From Candolleomyces eurysporus (lineage: Eukaryota > Basidiomycota > Agaricomycetes > Agaricales > Psathyrellaceae), in assembly GCA_027579435.1 (NCBI GenBank), contig JANBPK010001472.1:123398-187397 (forward strand): a stretch of DNA of 64,000 nt. The letters run 5' to 3'. Both the position numbers and the translations under genes were made by a program. The stretch's first letter is position 1. Every line of letters begins with the position of its first letter. The notes under the pieces are model-generated. The model saw nothing but the letters and a program-made list of their open reading frames with translations. It did not search any database and was not told where the DNA came from. Shown here piece by piece: positions 42,068 through 64,000 of the stretch.

Positions 42068-43401
42068 CTACAAGCCAAAATGAACATAAGGAGCCCATGC
42101 GAGTAGCAAAGCCTCGGTGTCTCCGTGTCTAGCTCGCAGCCTACGCACTGCTCGGTGGAGGGAATATGCGGCTTTGGAGCTATCGATTGTACCCCCTCCC
42201 GAGTCAGACGAGCCAGAAAGTAAAAGGTCGGCGTAAAAGTCCTCTGCTATCTCGGGTGCGTATCTATCCTGAATTGACCACATCGTGCCTACGACTCCTC
42301 GATACCCCGCAGCGAGCATTCCGGCCGCTAGATGCACCGCTTCCTCGCTGAGTTTGTGGCTTCCGGTACTTGTCTGACATGCAGACAAGAAGGCGAAATC
42401 CGCAGATTTGATGTGTAATTTGATAATGGACGACAGCTCGAGTCGACCATCCTGTAGGCAGAACCCGCTATTGAGAGGCTCTTGTGCGTCTTGTTTGGCG
42501 TGACATGCTAGATGAACGCAGCTATAATTCTCCATGCCTTCTCTTCCAGCTTTGATTGTTGTTTCTTTGCCTTCGAGCTTGAGGGTCCGAATGGTAGGAT
42601 GAGAGTTTTTGATCGCCTGGCTGATTCGTTCAACCTCGGCCGTCGTACCAGGAATGGGAGGGCTGCCAGGTGCGTTGGGCTGGCTAAGGAGGAAGATGCC
42701 TGATTTTTCTTCAGAAACAGTCTGGCTGGCCTTCACACGTTCCGTAAGAACCGCGACTGTTGGGATGTAGGAGGAAACGGCGTAGTCGGACAGTGCTTCG
42801 GGGGCTTCGCCTCTGTAAATGCCTGCGGCGTGCAGCGGTAGGAAGCTCAGAGGGCCTGTTGGACACCACCATATTCTAGTCGTTGGATTTTCGGAACGCT
42901 GGTATAATTCTCAGTTTTACGATTTTTCTGCGGCCAATGGATCAAATCTGACTTACCGACATAGCCAAACCATTCACAATCGGCTTCACAACCGCAGCCC
43001 AAAGTCGCATCAGTATGCCCTCCATGACTGGGATGGTTTCCTTGGTGTCCTTATTTCCAAACGTCTTCACGGATCTCATAGCCCGATCTTCTGAGATGTT
43101 CAATTCGGAGGAAGATCCACGCACAGACAAGCCAAAGTCCTCGAGTGTGGCCTCCAAAAGCTGGGAGAGGTGCACAGCGTCGGAGTGGGAGAAGTCTGGT
43201 AGTGGAATGTGCATTGCCTCCTCGAGGCCCGCCATCAGTACGATAGCGTCACATCTGGTAGCATGCACGTTGATGACTACAACAGGACCGGCGTCGGGGA
43301 GGTGCTGCGTCCAGGAAGACGATGGCAGCGGTCGGAGGAAATTTTCGAAGCCGGGAATTGTCGTTCTGATGACATTGACTAATGTCTCCCGTTCCTTGGC
43401 T

Positions 43402-43409
43402 AACTTGAC
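43402..43409. repeat. Left 8-bp target site duplication of hAT element
   Basis: AACTTGAC, identical to 47711-47718 on the other side of the element. Confidence 0.85.
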
Positions 43410-46400
43410 TAAGGGTCCAACCATATACTATAGGTATAAGCCCAACGTCGTAGTTATATATAAGCTGTTTCTTATAGCGTAGTATACAGTATATATAGCA
43501 TTATACAGTAATAATAAACAGATTCAAAAATCACTGTGAAAATGGGTGACTACCATGCTTGACACGGGGCTTCGGTTTCTCGACAAGGTCAAAAAGGTTG
43601 GTCTTGATCCAAACCTTTGTTAACAAGGCCTCCCGGACGGTCTTTGCGTGCAACGAGCTACGAAGATCCGTGCAGATTCGGCGAGATTTTGAGAATGTCC
43701 GCTCAACAGACACACTCGTCGCCGGAATAGCAAGATAATCTCGTGCCATCGACGAAAGAACCGGGAACCGAGCCATGTTTTCCTGTGGNAAAAAATGAGC
43801 TAAGCCAGGGAAATAGAGATATTTGATGCATACCTTCCACCACCGTAGCGGATCCCACAGATCACCTTTGNCCCCCCTCAAACCCAAAGTACCGATTGAG
43901 CTCGTCATCAAGCCTCTGAGCTGCAGTGAGCGACGGCGCGGCAGTGGGAACGTTGGCTGGCACGTCGCATATGCTTGCAAGTCGGCTGATGGAGTCGGTG
44001 TGCTGGGGTGGTTGACTCGAAGCTGGGGAGGTCGGGATTGGCGAGGGCATGTTTGCGTCAATCTCGGCTTGGTATTGCTCAGCGACCGTCTTCACCAGAA
44101 GTTTGACGCGATCCACTGCCTCGTTTTGAGCTGCTTGAAGCTTGAAGGGATCAGAGTTGGCAGGAACGGTTTTGCGGAACCATTCGGCACGCAACGAAGG
44201 GTGGAGAACTAGGTAGAATGTCAGTACATCAACCCTAGGAGAGAGAAAAGCAACGTACCGGTGCTGATGATGAGATAATGGTTTCGCTCTGCCCCTTCCT
44301 TGTACTTGTTTAGCTTTGACAGCCCGGCAGCGGCTGCAGTGCGGATGTGGATCGGTGCCGTCCCTATCTGGGATGTTAGAGTCGAGAGATGGGCATGGAG
44401 ATCAAAGTAAATAGGAAGGGAGAAGGGGAGGGTGGGCCAAGAGGATGACGAAATGAGCTTGGTCACTTCGGCAAAGGGTTGGAGAGCATCTTCGAGAGTC
44501 TTTAGCATCTCCCAGTCCCTGGGTGTCAGCATAAGCCCTTGATATTCTTCTTGCCTGAACACCCATTCATTGATAGCCTGCCAATATTTATATGAGTGCT
44601 CATGTGGGTGAGTGCAAGAGTCACTTACCTCTCGCAGAAGACGAGACCTGGTGAGCATTGCATGTGATGAATTCCATCGCGTACGGACGTCACGGACAGG
44701 CATAAGCGACGCCAACAAGGCACTGTTCTTGTTGGAATCATCAACCCGCCTTGTACCATACTTCTCTGCTGAAATCTTCCAGAAAAGCTTGCGCCTCTGG
44801 GGCGAGCTTGTAATCTTGTTGTTGATAAAGCGAAGCTACAGGCGACGGCAGGTGAGCTGGCAATGTGGCTGTGCCATAAAACGGAAATGTTCTCACCCGC
44901 TTGAGAGCGCTCAATCCAATAGCCTGCACCTCTTCCTCTACTCCTTCACGAAAGAGCGCAGAGAGTGCGGCATCAACCTCTTCATCACCTTCGTCCTCTT
45001 CCACTTCCATGTCGGCATCCCGGCTTCCTTCGAGCTCGTTCTGTGCTTCATCCTCAGCAACATTGTAGTAGATTGGAGCATCCTTGTGCAAGAGGAAGTA
45101 GTCGTTGTCGTCGCTGAAGTCATCGCACGGGTCAGCCTCGTCAAGGGATGCCATCATTGCCTGAACGACAAGATTTATGACATGCGCCAGGCACCGAATA
45201 TGGCGATCTGTGTTCTCTGGGATGTTGTAGAGAGAAAGAAGGTACCGCGCTGCTGTTTGAAAAATGACATCATTGACAGTTGCGTTATCTGTAGCAAGGG
45301 CTATGAAGTAGTTTGGCGGAATACAGTAAGTTTCTGAATCAATTTATGCCAAATCTTGAAAACTCATCTTGTTCAAGCTCCCGATTTTACGTGCACCTTG
45401 AACGAATGCCCGGGCCGCGTGGTATCCTTCATGCTCCCTGCTCTCAAGAGGCTTAAAGTCGATGACCCGTTCGATTAGGTTCCAGTCGTCGTCGATAAAA
45501 GAAGCAATTGTGCATGCGAAGGTATAGATCATTTGACGGTTTGTCCAGGTGTCGGTAGCATACGCAATCTTGGATTTAATAGTCTAGATAGCCATAATTA
45601 ATCAGTATCATGTTGAGGTCAGCGAGGAGCGGGAAAGTCATACTGCAAACTCCTTCACAACCTTCCCATGAAGGTCGGCAAATATATGTGCAAGCTCATT
45701 CCGAACAGAGGTGTCGCTTGGGAGAGTATGCGTGATTTTCAAATATGCAAAGAGATGTCGGAGAAGCGGAGCCTCGCCAGTGGTCCATGGAAGGTCCTCA
45801 TCGAGAATCCAAGCTGCAAAGATGCGCCGGAACCCTTTGTTGGTAGGTGTAATCATAGGGTTGAGCTCACCTTCTTTGAGATACCGCTCCATAAGCTCAG
45901 CACTCTGTTTGAGGTGGTAGCCTTCCGATTTTGGCGCGGAGCTGCTGGCAGAGGCGGCAGAGTTGGCGGTCAACAGGCCCTTGCAGTCCTTGCTGTGCGT
46001 AGCGAGGTTACTGAGCTTTGGGAGAACCGGTTCCATATCGAAGGTGATATCTTGGCCATTGATCGTACGCTTAACACGACGGATGCTGGATTGCAATCAA
46101 TATGAGTCAGTTGACAAGTTTCGATTAAGTCGATCGGAACGCACCAGGTGCAGTGCTTGCATCGAAACTCCCACTGCTTCATGCCTGACTTAGACTCGAT
46201 GACGGGTTCTGGATCATGGAAATGCTGCATGCTCTTGTTGAGAGGACCTCGGCGAGCCCCCTCGTTCCGAGACGCATCCACAGCCTGAGCAGCATTTAAT
46301 GCTGTCTGACCATCAGACTCGTCACCAGAATCAAGGTCAATGACCTCCCCATTCACCGGCACCGGCTGTTGTGCGGCTGTGTTGGTACGAGACTTCTTCT

Positions 46401-47710
46401 TTGCACGCTTTGTCTTCTAACCATCCACATTCGGTATAGCACCAGTAGTCAAGATAAGATGATCACATACCAAATTCTTCAATACATCACTCTCCTCGAC
46501 AACCTCATTTCCGTCAGTGTCAAAAATCACGTCCGGAAGGTCGTCCTTGTCTTCATGAGGGCGTTGAGGAGGGGTGTACTCATCATCTTCGTCACTCAAA
46601 TGAGGGTTTGCAGCTCGTTTGCGCTTTGCTGGTAAGGTCGCGCTGTAAGATTGAAGAGTCCTCAGTAACCAAATGACGAAGACTCGGAATAGAAACTCAC
46701 CCTAAAGCCTTGAGCTCGTCAACCAAGCGCATAACCCTGGGCATCGCAGCTTCCCATTGAAGGGAGTTTGCTGTAATAGAGCTGTCAAGGTAGTTGAGGA
46801 CGAGATCAAGGCCATGTTTTCCCCGCTGGATGTTGGGTAAGCGTCCGGTAACCTTGTCACGGCTGTCTTCACTGAACAGCGCGTCCATCCGTCGGTTAAA
46901 GACTTCCCAGTGCTCGAGTGGGTCATCAGGTACAGGAATATTTGCAAAGACAGTCGAGATACGGCTGTCCTTTGGAGCGATGGGCACGGCAGTGGGCAGT
47001 TTCTTGCTCAACTGGTGTAGAGTGGTGACGTGCTTGGAGAAGACAGCGAAGACATTTGGCGCCATTTCGGGGGGTGAGAAGTGAATTAATGGATAGTGAG
47101 ACGCACCTCCTTGTGAATATATGAGCAGGCCATGGTCTCCTGGTCCGATGTGACCCAAAAATACGCATGAACCCGTGATTTTCCAAACCTCAACACCAAC
47201 TGCAAATTGCAGGCGAAATCCTTGGCTCAGGAACATCATGTGGTTGCTCTGAATGGTTTTTTAAAGAATAGATATTCACTTCATAGATAAAGCGTGCTTC
47301 TCTGTGATAAAAGTCCTTGGACACGATTATCCCGAGTATCACTCCACCTCGAGGCCAAACAAGGGAATTCCCAGCTTTAATTTCTCTTCTGACAGTATCT
47401 GTCATGTACGGCAAGAGTCAACGCTTCATTCAACTTTGAGCTTGACGCTTGCCGATGCCTGGTGTCTTGGCCATCGAAACCATCTCTCCCGAAGAGATCT
47501 GGCCATGTGGATGGCCTCTAATCAAAGATGCAGAGGTTGGTATGGTTCCCAGTCGGCCGATTCTCCGTTTGAGCTCAACTGTATACCATATCTGTATACA
47601 CTCTAATTACTGTCCGGTCAACTTGGCCAACATTCAAGTATACCTATATGTAATCTTATAGAGTATAGACAGTATATATACGGTAGGTAGATAATACAGT
47701 TGGAGCCTTA
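43410..47710 (-). mobile_element. hAT DNA transposon inside the TPR-CHAT gene
   Basis: 4301 bp, flanked by the 8-bp direct repeat AACTTGAC, the duplication length typical of hAT. Ends are imperfect inverted repeats: left TAAGGGTCCAACC, right (complement) TAAGGCTCCAACT. Just inside both ends the DNA is AT-rich with ATAGGTATA motifs. Joining host sequence across one copy of the duplication restores a continuous reading frame from the TPR part (SSHVK) to the CHAT part (LAKERETLV), so the boundaries are exact. The element carries one transposase gene in the same orientation as the host gene. Confidence 0.9.
43531..47065 (-). CDS. hAT-family transposase (multi-exon)
   Basis: Pieces of one spliced gene on the minus strand. 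First is a conserved N-terminal region starting MAPNVFAVFSK at 47065, then an acidic segment, then a BED-type zinc finger (KQWEFRCKHC near 46165, with a TH downstream). The central RNase H-like region includes KIAYATDTWTNRQ (near 45560), RHIRCLAHVINLVVQAM (near 45160) and DVRTRWNSSHAML (near 44690). The C-terminal hAT dimerisation domain reads ARFPVLSSMARDYLAIPATS then VSVERTFSKSRR (43780-43660), with stop at 43531-43533. About eight introns are needed; their exact borders were not all resolved. An N at 43871 before a C run breaks one frame. Otherwise conserved, so the element may be recently active. Confidence 0.8.
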
Positions 47711-47718
47711 AACTTGAC
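47711..47718. repeat. Right 8-bp target site duplication of hAT element
   Basis: AACTTGAC, matching 43402-43409. Confidence 0.85.
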
Positions 47719-49897
47719 GTGTGAACTTGCCTGCTCTTGAAGGGCTATCTTTTGATCCGCCGTTGCTTCGAATCTTCCCCTTGGGTCCTGTACGCGGGCC
47801 CCAGCAGCGTCGAGCGCTTTTGAGACAGTTTCGAAGCGGTCTGCCATCGTAGCGTCGACCGCACGAAGGTCATCCAATGGGGTACGCAGGCTGCTGATTT
47901 GATTCCATACTAATCCCCGGCCTTGTTCAAGCCATTCCAGAGCTTTATCAATACGCCCTGAGGAGATAGCGACAGAAGCGCCGTGCAAAATGTAGCTTGA
48001 AAGATCCATGAGGAGCTCGTGACGGTGCTGCACAGTTTGTTCAACGCCTGCAAATAACGGAACAACGTCGACAAGCGCATCAAATGCGCTGATTGCTTGA
48101 GTGGGATTGTCGTATTCCAGGGCGCATAACGCCCAGGTTCTTGCTACGCGGAAGCGATCATATGGAGAGGATGTTTGTGCAAGGGTGCCCGAGCGAAAAT
48201 GTGTAAGTCCGGACTCTAAGTCACTGGGATCCCGCGAGACCCCATAGCGACTGATCAAGCTGTTTGCAAGATTGTTTAGCGACCTCGCTCGATAGCTGTG
48301 ATTCTCTGGGATCATCCTGAGAGCGCGCTCCTTAAGCTCGATCGCTTCACAAATATCGGCCATATCTTGAGTGAGAAGGAAGCGATCACTCAGTGTCCTG
48401 CCGAGACTGTCAAGAATGATTTTGAAGTGAACATTGTCGGGCGAGCTTGTCTCCAATGCTTTTCGGCGCGAATCTACGGCTTGCTGAATATGCTTGAGCT
48501 CCCCGGTAGTCTCGAAGAGGGCTTGGTAGCAGCAACCTAAATTGTCAAGGATACTGGGAAGCGAGCTGTGCCCCTCTGGCAAGGTCTCCACCGCTTCACG
48601 TTGCGCACTGATGGCACGATAGATATATGTCACGTTGTGGGTGCGGTCATACATCTGTTCGTAGCACCAGGCGAGATTGTTGGGGGTGGAGGGACGAGTA
48701 GGGTTGTCCTTCGGGGTCTCGTCAACAGCCAATTCGATGGTCTTCGTGGCTTCCTCCAAGGACTCGAGGTCTTGGGAATGATTATAGCGATGCCAGAATG
48801 AAAGGGCAAGGTTATTGAGAAGGGTATACTTTGAAGCAATTTGGCTCGAATCGGCGTTTTGCAAGGCTTGATGTTGAGTCGAAATGGCCTCGTTAATGTC
48901 GGCGAGATCTCCAAACTTCTTGAATTTTCTCATGAGGCCGGCGCCAAGGTTAGTTAAAATGGAGGGGTTCCCGGGTTGTTTTCGCGTTGCTTCTCTGAAG
49001 CAGATTATAGCTTGTTCAAGGTCTTCGTCAACTCCATTTGATCTGAACCGTGCCAAAAGTGCGGTGCCAANGGGGGGCTGTCGTCCTCAGGCCATCGGGA
49101 TCTTCAGCGGAAGAGTACACTCGGGAAGAGGTGACATGGGCTTCGATTGATTTGTTTATGTCCTCTGGGTTGCCCAGGCGTTCGAATCGGAGAAATAGCA
49201 ATACCCCCAGGTAATCCCACAACACCGACCTCATATTCCTCCCGCCACCAAAACAGTCACAATCAATGACCTGGCGTTGGACATCGATTGCCCGGTCCAG
49301 GTCGATGATATTCCCAAAAATTTCATATCGGGTCCGCAGCGCTAGGTGGATGCTAAATCTAGCCCTAGCAAGCGGTTCATCGTCCTTGGACCGATCCTGA
49401 TCGGCTGCTCGTAGAGCTATTTCTTCCTCCAGGACGTTGATAAGTTCATCGAGGTGGTCACGTTGATTAGATGTCGTGTGGCGAACACGTAAGGATTGTG
49501 CAAGGCCATAGAGGGCATCAATGCGGTCAGGATCTTGTCGTGGGATCGACGCCAGAGCCTCTCTGAAGGCGGCCTGGTCCAGATCCTCTGGATTTTGGAA
49601 CAGTGCTTGATTTTCGAATTGAGTGGCTACACAGAGATTTCTTAAGTTGGGCGCAATCAGGAAGGTCGGATGGCTTACCTGACACGACCTTGTATTCCCT
49701 CGTAATCATTTTTCGCACAATGAAAGAAATTCCGAGATTGCAACTTTGTTCTGCACCATCGGTAAGGTAGCTCCCAATGACACTGACAGTCCCATCGACT
49801 TTCATCCAACGTCACGTGATGGAGCGTGACGCTTCCAAATCGGGGAAAAAGTCGTCCTTATCTTCGTCGACTATCTGTTTTGTCACAATTTTGAGAG

Positions 49898-58059: not shown

Positions 58060-60356
58060 ATGGGTAACAGCAGCCCCTCCTTCACGGCTCGCAATGTGTT
58101 CCGTCATTTTGTGGTCTTGCTCGGCTTGGTTTCCATAGTTTCCGCTGCGACGAATGGTCTCCTCAAGGGTAGAAGACAAAGAATGCATAATGTTTTGAGG
58201 AATGTTGGCAGTGGTGGAGGGTCGAACTCGAAGGCGAAGCCCGATGCTGCTACTAGACGGCCGGTGACAGATGTGAACGGAAATCTCATCCCCGACTACG
58301 ATGTGATCTACACCTTCGACCAGCTCATCGACCATTCGAATCCCCGGCTCGGAACCTTCAAACAGCGGTACTACCACACATGGGAATACTACAGGCCGGG
58401 CGGACCTATTGTTATCATGACTCCTGGAGAGCAGGCTGCAGATGGTGAGCAAACGCCTATCTACCTTTTACCAGTCCGAATCTCGCCCATGACAGTGACT
58501 AACGATCGATATAGGGTCAGAGGTGCATCTGACAAACAGGACTATGGTCGGTACCATCGCGCAAGCTACGAACGGGGCAGCCATCGTCTTGGAGCATCGC
58601 TTCTACGGACAGTCCAACCCCTACCCTGACATGACTGTAGAAAGCCTGCAGGTGCACACAATCGAGCAAGCCATGGATGATCTGGTCTATTTTGCGCAAA
58701 ATGCCAAACTCGCGATGCCTGGTGGGGATACTGAATCAGTCCGTCCTCACAAGGCTCCGTGGATTCTACTCGGTGGCAGCTACGCCGGTGCTTTGACGTC
58801 GTGGACCCTGAACCAGTGCGTTTACTGTCCCCTTTCGTGTTACCCAGCCGCTGATCCATTGCTATTAACAGGAGACCTGGTGTCTTTTGGGCAGGCTACT
58901 CTTCCTCGGGTGTCATCCAACCCCTTCTGTGCGTATCCACTCTAGATTCGATATCCGCGACGACTCATTGATTCCTCGATACAGGAATTTCTGGCAGTAC
59001 TTCACCCCTATCCAAACCCACATGCCAGCCAACTGTTCCGCCGATGTTCAAGCAGCCATTGAGCTCGTTGACTCCGTGCTTGATTCTGGGGATGCGACCA
59101 CTATTGAAGAGCTGCAGACCCTGTTCGGTTTCTCTGGACTTTCACCCTCGGATTTCGCCAACGCTCGTATGTTGTGTTCAGCATCTGACCCCAGTCGTAC
59201 CAGGCTGACTGAATGATTCTCAGTGACATATGTTATTTCCGATTGGCAAACGCTCGACATCGATTCCCCGCGAGGTTCAGGGTTCTATGAATTCTGCGAT
59301 GCATTGGAAGTTCAANGGGGGGGAGGTTGCGCCGGCCAGCGGGTTTGGTGCAAGGAATGCCATTGAGGCCTGGGGACGGTTTTATCGAACGTCCTATATC
59401 CCCACCCGTATGTCAACATGTTCGCCTTCCACCTGCGATGTCTAATCCCTCTCCGTCATTTCCAGTATGCGAAGGCTTCGATGCAAAGTAAGGCAATTCG
59501 AACATCTCGCTGCAGAAGCAGCTATTGACCCCTTCTTCCCTTCGCTAGTGCTTGCGTCACCTTTGACGGTATAACTTCGAGCGATACCAGACCTACTGAT
59601 GATCGATCATGGTGGTGGACAGTGTAAGCTTGTCCCATTCAACCAGGGTGGGCTCACATTGATGTTTCTATTTCCGAATAGGTGCAGCGAAGTCGGTTGG
59701 GCCCAAGTTGGCCCTCCTGCCGGGGTCAATGGCATAGTATCTAAGCACTTTACACCGGATAGCTACACTGTGCGTTCGTCAGTTCTTCTACCCTCTACCT
59801 ATACTCAGAGTGTCTCTTTCAGGCATACTGCAGGGACGCCTTCCAGGGTGCATTCTCAAACTCGACAGCAGAGTACCAAGCAAGAATCGACGCTACGTCA
59901 CAAAAGTTCCTTGGCTGGAACACCACCGCAGAGCGACTGTTCGTCGTCAACGGCAATCGTGCGTCTGCTTTTCCTAATTCCTCCATTTTGGGATCACCGC
60001 TGAAATATGCTTGACCGCTCTCAGGTGACCCCTGGGTTGAAGTTACCCATTCCGCTGCTGCAGCCCGCATCGCGAGCACGGCTACCCAACCCATTTTCCT
60101 CACGGATGGATTCCACTGTTCCGATATGTTGATCTCCAACGCTGTCGACCAGTCGATTAACCAGGTGTTCCAGAGTGCGATCACGACTTTCCCTCAATGG
60201 GTGGCCGAGTTCAAGCCCAGTGACAAACCCGCCACTACCACCACCACTACAGGACCGAATTCGAACAGGAACAGCTCGCTTGGCCGACGCGACGCCATAG
60301 CGTCCTCCCTTGGTCTAGCTCTGGCTGGTGTGGTCTTCGCCTTCATCGGGCTATAA
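58060..60356 (+). CDS. Secreted serine peptidase, family S28 (prolyl-type carboxy/dipeptidyl peptidase)
   Basis: Multi-exon gene; resolved exons include 58060-58444, 58515 to about 58817, then several of 30-300 nt to 60356. Signal peptide near FRHFVVLLGLVSIVSAA. Family marks in order: FDQLIDHSNPRLGTFKQRYY, GGPIVIMTPGE, LEHRFYGQS, the nucleophile in GGSYAGAL, VFWAGYSSSGVIQ, MPANCS, CSEVGWAQVG, the Asp in NRDPWVEVT and the His in DGFHCSDM. S28 enzymes cleave next to proline. The C-terminus is Thr/Asn-rich and ends in a hydrophobic segment (ASSLGLALAGVVFAFIGL), suggesting a GPI-type or membrane anchor. N at 59316 before a G run shifts one frame. Start at 58060 is chosen for the TATA at 57985 and the signal peptide; an upstream ATG at 57925 would add 45 residues. 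Confidence 0.85.
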
Positions 60357-63300
60357 GGCGGAACAACGTCGTGCGGTATATTTATGGACACTGAGACGAA
60401 CATTTTGGGTATCATGCATGGACGNTTTTTGACGGTATACCCCAGTGGAAGAACCAAGTCACCCAGACATACACATTCGCTTCGCTGTATCATTACTTGA
60501 CAATTAATGCTAATAGCTATATTTAATTTGGTCAGCTGGCTATAGCAGATAAGAAGAGAAGCCTCTAGACTCGATGGGCCTTTCCGAGGCTTATTCTAGT
60601 CTGAGGAGGGTTACTTGGTTGCTCCTCATCATCGGATCAATTTTCTCCTCGAGGAAGATGAGACAGCCAAATCCCATTGCCCACAAGTTGTGAGAAGGTT
60701 ACTGAACGAGTGCCCCTCCACGTCGACGATTGTCATTCAGACAATATTCATTTCTGCTTCCATCTTTGCTTTCGAAACCCATGCTCAGCGTTGTCGTTGC
60801 GTTGCTACAGGTCATCTCTGGTGCGGCTTATGCCCGCATGCTTGAAGAGTTCCTTCAGAAGAAGGATACGGTCGGGAGCATCTGAGTCACCAGCTTCTTG
60901 GGACCGCTTCTCGAGCCCTTTTCTTCTTCCATGTGCCTTAACGAAGCACTCGATAGCCTGCACTGGCTTGTGTCCGGGCGTCACCCGAGAGACAGACAGA
61001 AAAGGCCTCACAGCTGACGTTTGCATCCCAGGCAGACCCATGGACCCAAGGCTACGTTTATCTCGGACATAAGCAATCCTTTCAGCTTACCTGCCGTGTA
61101 TAAGTGCGCTCGACGCGGACCCCAGTATCCGTTCCATGGCTGGCTGGTCCGAATGCCTCCAGGATAGAGCCGGATATAGTACGTGGCTTATATACAAGTT
61201 ACAGTCTTATCCCCACCTAAATATATCTAGGCCTTCTGCACATGGATCATAAAGCCTACCGCTAGTCACGCGCAAGGGGTATCGGTACCTTCCATTCTCA
61301 TCCCGCCCTTTCACTGGGAAGAACCTAGGTGATATATTCCGGTGGTGGAATGAATGAGGAGATAAGATTTCTGCAACTCGTTTTGTAACAGTTACCTGAG
61401 CCTTGGTTACGAACTTCTCACCAAGACTTGAAATCTTTCTTTGATGAGATTTCGAAGCTTAGAGATTGACCGTGGACAGCACTTAATATGTCTTACAGCC
61501 GGAAGATCAAAACCTGCGTCTGGCTGACTCTGGCATTGCCCTCTATTGGGGGTAGCACAAATTTTTCAGGGCCGTCATCAGGACTGGTGTTGCTCCTTGA
61601 GGGACTCTGCTCACAACTGTTCTTCACCGCTCAATCGACGGATCTTCGCAGCTTGGGGTGAGTACTGCTCGGGACTATGTCTTCCTGATACCGGTTCTAG
61701 AGATACCATGCGCCCTCCTTGTGCTCACGACAAGCAACAGGCTTACGTTGCTACATTGAAAGAACGTCCCCTATAAATGAAGTGCAGATCGAGGGTTGCT
61801 ATGCCGCTGGGACATTTTTCTGCTCATTCATAGTCAGTCGTGTAGGAGCATGATCATCATGTCGCGACCTCCTCCATTTGAGATGAGACCTTACCCTTCA
61901 CGGATATCGTTTGAGTTAGCGAAATAGCCAACTCGAGATCTCGTCGTCAGCTCCTTGGAATTTTGCTTCTCCAGGGACAATGATTAAGAGGTCTCTACCT
62001 TGTATTTTGGGCTCATTTCTCAGAATCCGAGGCGTAACAATAAGGAGAAACTCAGAAGCCTGAACTGTCAACGCAAGAAGCTTTTGGAGAAGAGACATAG
62101 AGAAATCAGGTAATCTCAACGCCAAAGGCTTGACTTTCTTGACCTAATTAAAGGACGCCTGGGACCTTTGAAGCCTTATTCTCGTCAAGCCTCGGTCGAT
62201 TGCCACTATTCCTTAAAAACACTCGAAGGAAGGACGATGCCGATACCGCGGTCCCTCGGCACTGGACGGCAATCGCTCGAAAATGCCACGGTTCAGTTGA
62301 GCAAAACCACCACCTGGCTTGCACTCGCAATCATCTGCAGGCTGCTACGTCGCAACTAAAGGCTCTTACCCTCGTAATTTATCGACGAAAGGCACTCTAA
62401 CGGCCTCCTATCGAGGCCATGGCTCCCAAAAATTGATGGTTGATATTCTCTTCTGGGCCCTGGCTCCACCATGGATGAAGCCTATTCAACGTCAAGGGCA
62501 GTGACTATCGAAAGGTTATCACAGGCCCGGGAGCGTATTCGGATCTCCTTCTACCGTACGAAGCTATCGGAGCTATGGCGTGCGGTGTGCTGCGGTACGT
62601 CTGACATCATGGGGTCTTCAGTTGCATTGCCTCAGATTGCCTCCCTGTAACTGATTGGCCAAGAAATAGGAACTGTATTCGGTGGGTTATCTTGTGCTAT
62701 CCCACTAGGATATCCGGTAGTTCAATGCTGAGATCCCGGCAATCTCCCGAGATAAAACCCACACGCTTGGGATATTTCTGCGACAAGTTCTCGGTTTCTG
62801 GGGTGCTCGTGAGAGTATCGCAAGAAGAGCCAGGTTACATGAAGGAACGCCGAATGGGTCACCACGCGCTGAAAGAATGGCGTATGTTATCCGATGGTTT
62901 GGGACGTACGTATCGATAATAAGAGCGTCATCGCACACCACGAGCTAGTGAGTGTAGTCGACGTAGGATGAACGATGAAGGGCCGGTAAGTCCAGACTAA
63001 AGCTAAGAGCTCGCTATCACAATATCAATCGAAGGATTGACGTATCTTCGCCACTAGGTTGCTCGGCGAGGCGGTCATGCGAGTGGAGGCCTATATGATC
63101 CATCCACTGATCTGACGCAACGGCCAAATTCCCTTTCTCGAAATGACTGCATGCGCGACTTTGCCTTTGCAGTCTTCCTCCGTCATGTCTCGCACAGTCG
63201 AGCGTAGTGCACATTCCGAAGCTTTGGAAATGTCGCGCATTCATGGTGTCCTCGTTGTAGACACTATCTGTAGCCCTTTGTTGGGCTCAGTCGTGGTCGC

Positions 63301-63590
63301 GGCGAACGTACGACTCGGAGGATATTTGTGCAACTGACCTCTGCCCGAACGCAAGAAGCAATCACCGAGCGGGAGCGCCCCAAAATCATCCTTAGCCCAT
63401 TACCACATCCAAGGAAAGCTGGTGATTCTCATCACAGGACGACTAAAAGCTGAAATTGGATCTCGACTTCTTTGCTTGATGGAGCTAATGCACCACAATG
63501 CACGCTTTCCGCAATTACTTACCCAGGTCACATAAGCTTCTTCCCTTCAGGTACAAGAAAGTCCGGACATTCAACATGGAGTCCCGGAGG
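60357..63590. other. 3.2-kb spacer without recognised gene
   Basis: N at 60425. Scattered short frames (for example 62200-62400, 63143-63337) lack domains, introns with consistent phase or promoter signals. No repeats or RNA genes recognised. Confidence 0.4.
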
Positions 63591-63598
63591 TATATAAA
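63591..63598 (+). promoter_or_regulatory. TATA box of repeat-peptide precursor gene
   Basis: tatataaa, 77 nt before the ATG at 63668, followed by a CT-rich leader ending cttcaaaATG. Confidence 0.6.
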
Positions 63599-63667
63599 CG
63601 CCTCCACCCCGGCATTCAAGTCAATACTCAGCTCCATTTTCATCTTACCGTCTTCCCTTCCTTCAAA

Positions 63668-64000
63668 ATGAGGTTCTGCAACTTCATCTCAGTACTGGCA
63701 CTCACATTCCTTACCGTCACTTCCGCTTCGCCAGTACGTCAACACCGGCCAGGTTGTTCTCGGCGCCTTGCTAACTGCTCAGCAGATACCCTCAGAACAA
63801 ATTCGTGATGTTGGAGCTCGTAACGCAGAGGTAACGCTATTCAATCGTTACAGACGGTGCTAGTGTGCTCAACTGTCATCGCGATAGGCGGGGCCCCCTC
63901 AACCAAACTGGAAGAGAGACGCGGAGGCAGGGACCCCTCAGCCGAACTGGAAGAGAGACGCTGAGGCGGGGACCCCTCAGCCGAACTGGAAGAGAGACGC
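63668..64000 (+). CDS. Kex2-processed repeat peptide precursor (alpha-pheromone-like layout), 3' truncated
   Basis: Three exons so far: 63668-63733, 63783-63830 and 63888 to the window edge, all GT..AG and in phase 0. Exon 1 encodes a signal peptide (MRFCNFISVLALTFLTVTSA). Exon 2 is a short pro-region (QIPSEQIRDVGARNAE). Exon 3 is a tandem array: AGPPQPNWKR, then two full copies of DAEAGTPQPNWKR, with the next copy cut at base 64000. Each unit ends in Lys-Arg, a Kex2 site, and begins Asp-Ala-Glu-Ala, a substrate pattern for Ste13-type dipeptidyl aminopeptidase. Trimming would leave GTPQPNW. This is how ascomycete alpha-factor precursors are built. The role here is unknown: signalling peptide, RiPP core or surface peptide. 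Confidence 0.85.
63888..64000 (+). repeat. 39-bp coding tandem repeat
   Basis: Units 63918-63956 and 63957-63995 differ at two third-codon positions (gcg/gct, gca/gcg). A diverged 30-nt first unit lies at 63888-63917, and a further unit starts at 63996 and leaves the window. Confidence 0.9.

Follow-up and report, generated by a model that had tools for sequence, protein, structure and literature searches.

The window analysed here is a 64,000-nucleotide stretch of the Candolleomyces eurysporus genome (G000:C460:123398-187397), and genome-wide searches covered the 65.85 Mb assembly of 1296 contigs. At its right-hand end (63668-64000) the sequence gives a model of a three-exon gene on the plus strand, with an ATG at 63668. 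Exon 3 begins at 63888 and runs to the end of the contig (C460), which falls exactly at window base 64000, inside a tandem array; exon 3 and the array are known up to that base. The features considered below are the following:

58345..60356, plus strand, S28 serine peptidase gene, a neighbour outside the proposed system (PF05577 and A. niger prolyl endoprotease matches)
63591..63600, plus strand, TATA-like stretch TATATAAACG, ~70 bp 5' of the ATG (read by eye)
63668..63733, plus strand, exon 1, predicted signal peptide MRFCNFISVLALTFLTVTSASP (gene model and hydropathy)
63734..63782, plus strand, intron 1, 49 bp, GT..AG, phase 0 (gene model)
63783..63830, plus strand, exon 2, spacer QIPSEQIRDVGAR, then NAE, with which the first STE13-type spacer opens (gene model)
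63831..63887, plus strand, intron 2, 57 bp, GT..AG, phase 0 (gene model)
63888..63926, plus strand, unit 1, (A) GPPQPNW KR DAE (gene model and Tandem Repeats Finder)
63927..63965, plus strand, unit 2, (A) GTPQPNW KR DAE (gene model and Tandem Repeats Finder)
63966..64000, plus strand, unit 3, (A) GTPQPNW KR D(A), ended by the contig end (gene model and Tandem Repeats Finder)

The spliced precursor reads MRFCNFISVLALTFLTVTSASP (exon 1), QIPSEQIRDVGARNAE (exon 2) and AGPPQPNWKRDAEAGTPQPNWKRDAEAGTPQPNWKRD(A) (exon 3), or MRFCNFISVLALTFLTVTSASPQIPSEQIRDVGARNAEAGPPQPNWKRDAEAGTPQPNWKRDAEAGTPQPNWKRD(A) in continuous form. Hydropathy in exon 1 peaks at 2.6 over ten residues, and signal peptidase is likely to cut after TSA or nearby. 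Intron 1 contains a TGCTAAC branch-like site, and intron 2 splits the first NAEA spacer. The TATA-like stretch upstream may possibly be the core promoter.

The defining features of KEX2-processed repeat proteins (KEPs), an N-terminal signal peptide and repeated cores lying between KR, RR or KK, are both present: exon 1 supplies the former, and three 13-residue units with KR after each core supply the latter. The X-Ala/X-Pro dipeptides that follow the Kex2 site in STE13-type members are also found, as DAEA 5' of units 2 and 3, NAEA 5' of unit 1, and DA at the cut end. The preliminary description of this DNA had predicted a signal peptide, a short pro-region and tandem units, with Kex2 sites, STE13-type dipeptides and a repeated core; the gene model and the repeat array agree with that layout, and the processing motifs can be read in the precursor itself. 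In a Pfam scan the only match of the precursor was a sub-threshold one to Moricin, with MF_alpha not matched. Comparison with a protein collection that includes agaricomycete proteins gave no homologue at E<=1 among 10 candidates, short precursors being hard to find in this way. The precursor has all the KEP and STE13-type features open to test here and differs in its core sequence, and we regard it as highly probable that the gene encodes a KEP with STE13-type spacers.

Tandem Repeats Finder reported a single array, at 63886-64000, with a score of 195; it comprises 2.9 copies of a 39-bp period, with 92% matches between them and without indels. The tandem GTPQPNW cores described previously are found in units 2 and 3, whereas unit 1 carries GPPQPNW. 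The calculated [M+H]+ is 799.373 for GTPQPNW and 795.378 for GPPQPNW; less or further trimmed forms would have 1185.517 (DAEAGTPQPNW), 999.453 (EAGTPQPNW) and 641.304 (PQPNW). Two DAEAGTPQPNWKR units do differ at silent positions only, as had been noted: there are two such differences (GCG/GCT and GCA/GCG), both in codons of the DAEA spacer, and the 21 core bases are identical. With a silent frequency of ~0.237 for random change in these codons, two silent changes out of two have a chance probability of ~0.056; over all three units, one of the five changed codons alters the residue (P/T at core position 2) and four are silent (p ~0.013). These changes, few in number, hint at selection on the peptide. 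The two silent differences had earlier been taken as proof of selection, a reading that is not supported at p ~0.056 and with so few changes, and the identity of the cores is equally explained by recent tandem duplication.

The assembly was searched at the protein, pattern and DNA levels, and no further contig with the C460 core or the region preceding it was found; the only partial second copy of 62900-64000 detected was a 91-bp piece of the array, on C1146. Related loci were sought in the same genome with the junction pattern W-[KR]-[KR]-[DE]-A-E-A, with the reversed pattern as control, which gave eight matches in six places versus two for the control. Four of these places are KEP-like on reading (C460, C1275, C41 and C1146). 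The matches on C978 and C1217 are not KEP-like and were dropped as chance; the place on C1217 resembles, by eye, part of a P450. A wider pattern gave 10 matches versus 6 for its reversed control, and its extra places, on C210 and C1092, are not KEP-like.

The gene on C1275 is a complete KEP, with a signal-peptide exon MRISSAILVVFSVLSAASAAPL, one 135-bp intron and then REAVAVANPPYLKRTAEAGAPDLRRDPEAEAAPPPAWRREAEAAPPPAWRRKAETS and a stop; its cores are NPPYL, GAPDL, APPPAW and APPPAW, and no homologue at E<=1 was found among 115 candidates in the protein collection. The locus C41:1-115 is a 3' KEP fragment cut by the contig start, which reads REPEAAGGPAWKREAEAARSPGWRREPEIVARGGPSW and a stop, with cores AGGPAW, ARSPGW and ...GGPSW, the last Trp being followed directly by the stop. 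At C1146:86400-86507 there is a short fragment with two cores, GPPSPHW and GPPVPHW, which shares 80% DNA identity with the C460 array over 91 bp and has, following the two cores, TAG codons where AAG and GAG would be expected. This locus looks like a decayed or dispersed KEP copy; alternatively, its coding sequence may simply stop at the first TAG, since C41 too has a stop directly after Trp. A Met-led hydrophobic stretch lies 366 bp upstream of the C1146 units, in their frame and with stops between, in a scan that also gave a spurious match at C1275, so that we do not count this stretch, although the units might still be joined to a signal exon through an intron.

Two of the four KEP-like loci (C460 and C41) are located at contig ends. 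The C41 array, which the pattern matches at 31-50, starts with the first base of its contig, in an orientation compatible with its being the other half of the C460 gene; the two have no core in common, mainly other spacers and other Arg codons, and we did not adopt C41 as the missing half. Trp-ending cores of all four loci end in P-x-W (PNW, PHW, PAW, PGW and PSW), an ending not shared by NPPYL and GAPDL of C1275. C41 and C1275, whose ends are clear, terminate in GGPSW and AETS, not in a CAAX sequence.

Maturation of the C460 precursor would begin with entry into the ER, directed by the signal peptide. A kexin would then cut after KR and, ahead of unit 1, after the single Arg of GAR; KR would be taken off by a KEX1-type carboxypeptidase, and DA-EA (NA-EA in unit 1) by a DPP-IV-type (STE13-like) dipeptidyl peptidase. 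The secreted products would be linear peptides, one copy of GPPQPNW and two or more of GTPQPNW. The genome shows the gene architecture, the repeats, the sites and the kexin and DPP-IV genes; expression, cutting and secretion we infer, and a linear secreted heptapeptide is our best reading of the product. DPP-IV-type enzymes are not known to cut X-Pro ahead of Pro. Trimming would thus stop at GPPQPNW because of the Pro at position 3, and at GTPQPNW because the Thr at position 2 makes GT neither an X-Ala nor an X-Pro start. Protection by Pro at position 3 would apply equally to GPPSPHW, GPPVPHW, APPPAW, GAPDL and NPPYL. Since the end of the spacer was placed by this stop rule, the agreement between cores and rule is partly built in, and its independent part is that units 1, 2 and 3 give products of an equal seven residues. 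We did not find the rule stated in the accessible portions of the KEP papers of 2019, 2020 and 2022.

The genome encodes candidate enzymes for this route, with the numbers for the P domain, DPP-IV, STE3, UstYa and S28 families all being lower bounds. The kexin frame on C1241 matches the solved yeast kexin with an E-value of 3e-118, and the frame following it has, by eye, a transmembrane-like stretch. Among the best 120 of 2884 relatives of this kexin, the eight best organism-named ones are from Candolleomyces, Termitomyces, Ephemerocybe, Somion, Grifola, Phlebia, Fistulina and Agrocybe, all agaricomycete genera, and are 65-72% identical; the ninth is from Entrophospora and the tenth from Infundibulicybe. 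On this basis the host is very likely an agaricomycete. DPP-IV is represented by at least one gene match in the genome, with a best E-value of 3.5e-25 against solved DPP-IV chains. Matches to the P domain (PF01483) were found at at least three loci, the kexin gene and two more, which agrees with the figure of three kex2 genes given for C. cinerea and other agaricomycetes (Vogt 2022, PMC9769878).

The S28 peptidase gene was identified by PF05577 matches in two frames within 58345-58807, and by matches of frames 58869-59213 (E 1e-7) and 60015-60353 (E 0.0013) to the Aspergillus niger prolyl endoprotease; the nearby frame 59575-60000 had no match in the family and protein comparisons. The gene may start further left than 58345, and its hydrophobic C-terminal tail reads, by eye, like a GPI signal. 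Its frame closes at 60356, so that the gene ends 3.3 kb before the ATG of the KEP gene. Presence and distance are therefore as previously described, whereas the suggestion of a meaningful partner is not supported, with at least nine S28 matches at at least eight loci in the genome, one of them on C460 and none listed on C1275, C41 or C1146. The S28 family includes dipeptidyl peptidase II-type enzymes, which leaves a slim chance that the neighbour takes part in trimming.

The preliminary description also implied that an alpha-factor layout is new for basidiomycetes. In this respect it overstated the case, the anatomy being right and the novelty not: such precursors were surveyed in 2019-2020 and their products were seen by mass spectrometry in 2022, according to the parts of those reports at hand. 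KEPs with STE13 signatures and a canonical alpha-pheromone-like architecture are reported from basidiomycetes (Le Marquer 2019, PMC6339444), an architecture with which the C460 precursor agrees; GTPQPNW was not met in the running text of that paper, as distinct from its figures and supplementary tables. A later survey, as far as its text was available, counted 1680 KEPs in Basidiomycota, 103 (6.1%) of which had neighbours with a UstYa domain (Umemura 2020). Coprinopsis cores QYKAPSW and QMRPPSW were freed of the STE13 motif on expression in Pichia, STE13-type peptides were detected in Pleurotus fruit bodies, and BLAST revealed many more basidiomycete KEPs with STE13 motifs and a C-terminal Trp (Vogt 2022, PMC9769878). 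Compared by its cores and published description, C. cinerea KEP 490115 resembles the C460 precursor in its short P-x-W cores, its signal peptide and its dibasic sites, and in XA/XP spacers that are trimmed off once the precursor is cut, but has another core, and RR where C460 has KR. The Pleurotus KEPs 1091723 and 1439342 likewise have the STE13 motif and give a linear Trp-ending peptide in fruit bodies, but their cores are of the SGVAADW type (Vogt 2022, PMC9769878). A text search of the literature for PQPNW, figures and supplements lying outside its scope, returned only an unrelated paper. What sets the gene apart is its heptapeptide sequence, the class having already been reported in mushrooms.

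Three other explanations of the gene were weighed against an STE13-type KEP with a linear product. The preliminary description had offered a RiPP precursor as an option, that is, a dikaritin-type gene whose cores would be modified or cyclized by oxidases of the UstYa type, either ahead of Kex2 cleavage or following it. Dikaritin precursors (ustiloxin type) share the signal peptide and Kex2-cut repeats with C460, the core Trp might serve as a site of modification, and UstYa has at least 17 matched pieces in the genome, on seven contigs; moreover, of 76 KEPs with homology to the basidiomycete set of STE13 type, 17 have DUF3328 (UstYa) neighbours according to the available text of Umemura 2020. 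However, dikaritin cores are modified by UstYa-type enzymes, and none of the 17 pieces listed (a lower bound) lies on C460, where only the upstream side is readable, or on C1146, C1275 or C41. The C460 core also lacks Tyr, and Vogt et al. (PMC9769878) describe their agaricomycete peptides as linear, with minimal modification. The RiPP option is therefore unsupported by the UstYa locations, and we judge it improbable. It is slightly less probable still that the gene is a relic without a product, or an assembly artefact at the contig end. The nearest copy, on C1146, looks decayed by its in-frame TAG codons, and the C460 array does lie at a contig end; against this, both C460 introns are GT..AG with the phase kept, the three units are in frame, and four of five changed codons are silent. 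The units also differ among themselves, so that plain duplication by the assembler is no explanation, and short-read assembly tends to break inside tandem arrays.

The last alternative, a functional alpha-type mating pheromone, we consider very improbable. The layout agrees with ascomycete alpha-factor precursors (MF-alpha type) in its signal peptide, KR sites, EA/DA dipeptides and tandem cores, but those precursors differ from C460 in the MF_alpha domain and the host, here a basidiomycete. The P-x-W core ends recall the C-terminal PCW conserved in alpha pheromones of Fusarium and other Sordariomycetes (Le Marquer 2019, PMC6339444). No STE2 match was found in the genome, in a search that was also silent in all its control genomes and so had no positive control, whereas the same tool gave at least 42 matched pieces of STE3; none of the STE3 matches listed is on any of the four KEP contigs. 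There is one ACAAAGGG, which we take to be the core of the pheromone-response element of smuts, at window 63274-63281 (minus strand), 387 bp upstream of the ATG. The window, however, holds six copies versus 1.98 expected, a number reached in 3 of 100 shuffles, and a single copy within 400 bp is weak evidence.

Listed matches to STE3 and UstYa occur elsewhere in the genome. Those to STE3, a lower bound, are on six contigs (C63, C215, C372, C912, C1141 and C1217), several of them in tandem groups; a link to KEPs through C1217 is not claimed, as the pattern place there is no KEP. Five UstYa-family matches lie within 39 kb at C1151:54739-93576, possibly a dikaritin-type cluster in an agaricomycete.

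Within the reading of C460 as a KEP, the peptide would most likely, at roughly even confidence, act as an external signal, perceived by the fungus itself or by other organisms, with a receptor distinct from STE2. Cognate GPCRs have been speculated for basidiomycete KEPs (Le Marquer 2019, PMC6339444). Weighed against a signalling role, knockouts of six KEP genes in C. cinerea had no phenotype as reported in the text (Vogt 2022, PMC9769878). Among the literature titles listed, none indicated a functional study of these peptides beyond that paper. We also put forward, as a speculative and on balance unlikely proposal, that GTPQPNW, GPPQPNW and the P-x-W cores of the other KEP loci form a secreted agaricomycete signal family that keeps alpha-factor maturation and is read by a non-STE2 receptor, for example a non-mating receptor of the STE3 type, with each core carrying its own stop for dipeptidyl peptidase (residue 2 other than Ala or Pro, or residue 3 Pro).

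By itself, the C460 gene adds one further sequence to a known class. The role of alpha-factor-like KEPs in mushrooms is, however, a question posed in the 2019 and 2022 papers, and the C460 gene offers a simple case in which to address it: the heptapeptide is defined and its mass exact, the genome has a few related loci, and the enzyme route is clear.

Elsewhere in the window, at 42071-49086 on the minus strand, a CHAT-domain frame (42071-42910) and a TPR-repeat frame (47659-49086) flank a hAT transposase dimerisation domain (43534-44091), and the region may represent a CHAT-TPR gene with an insertion.
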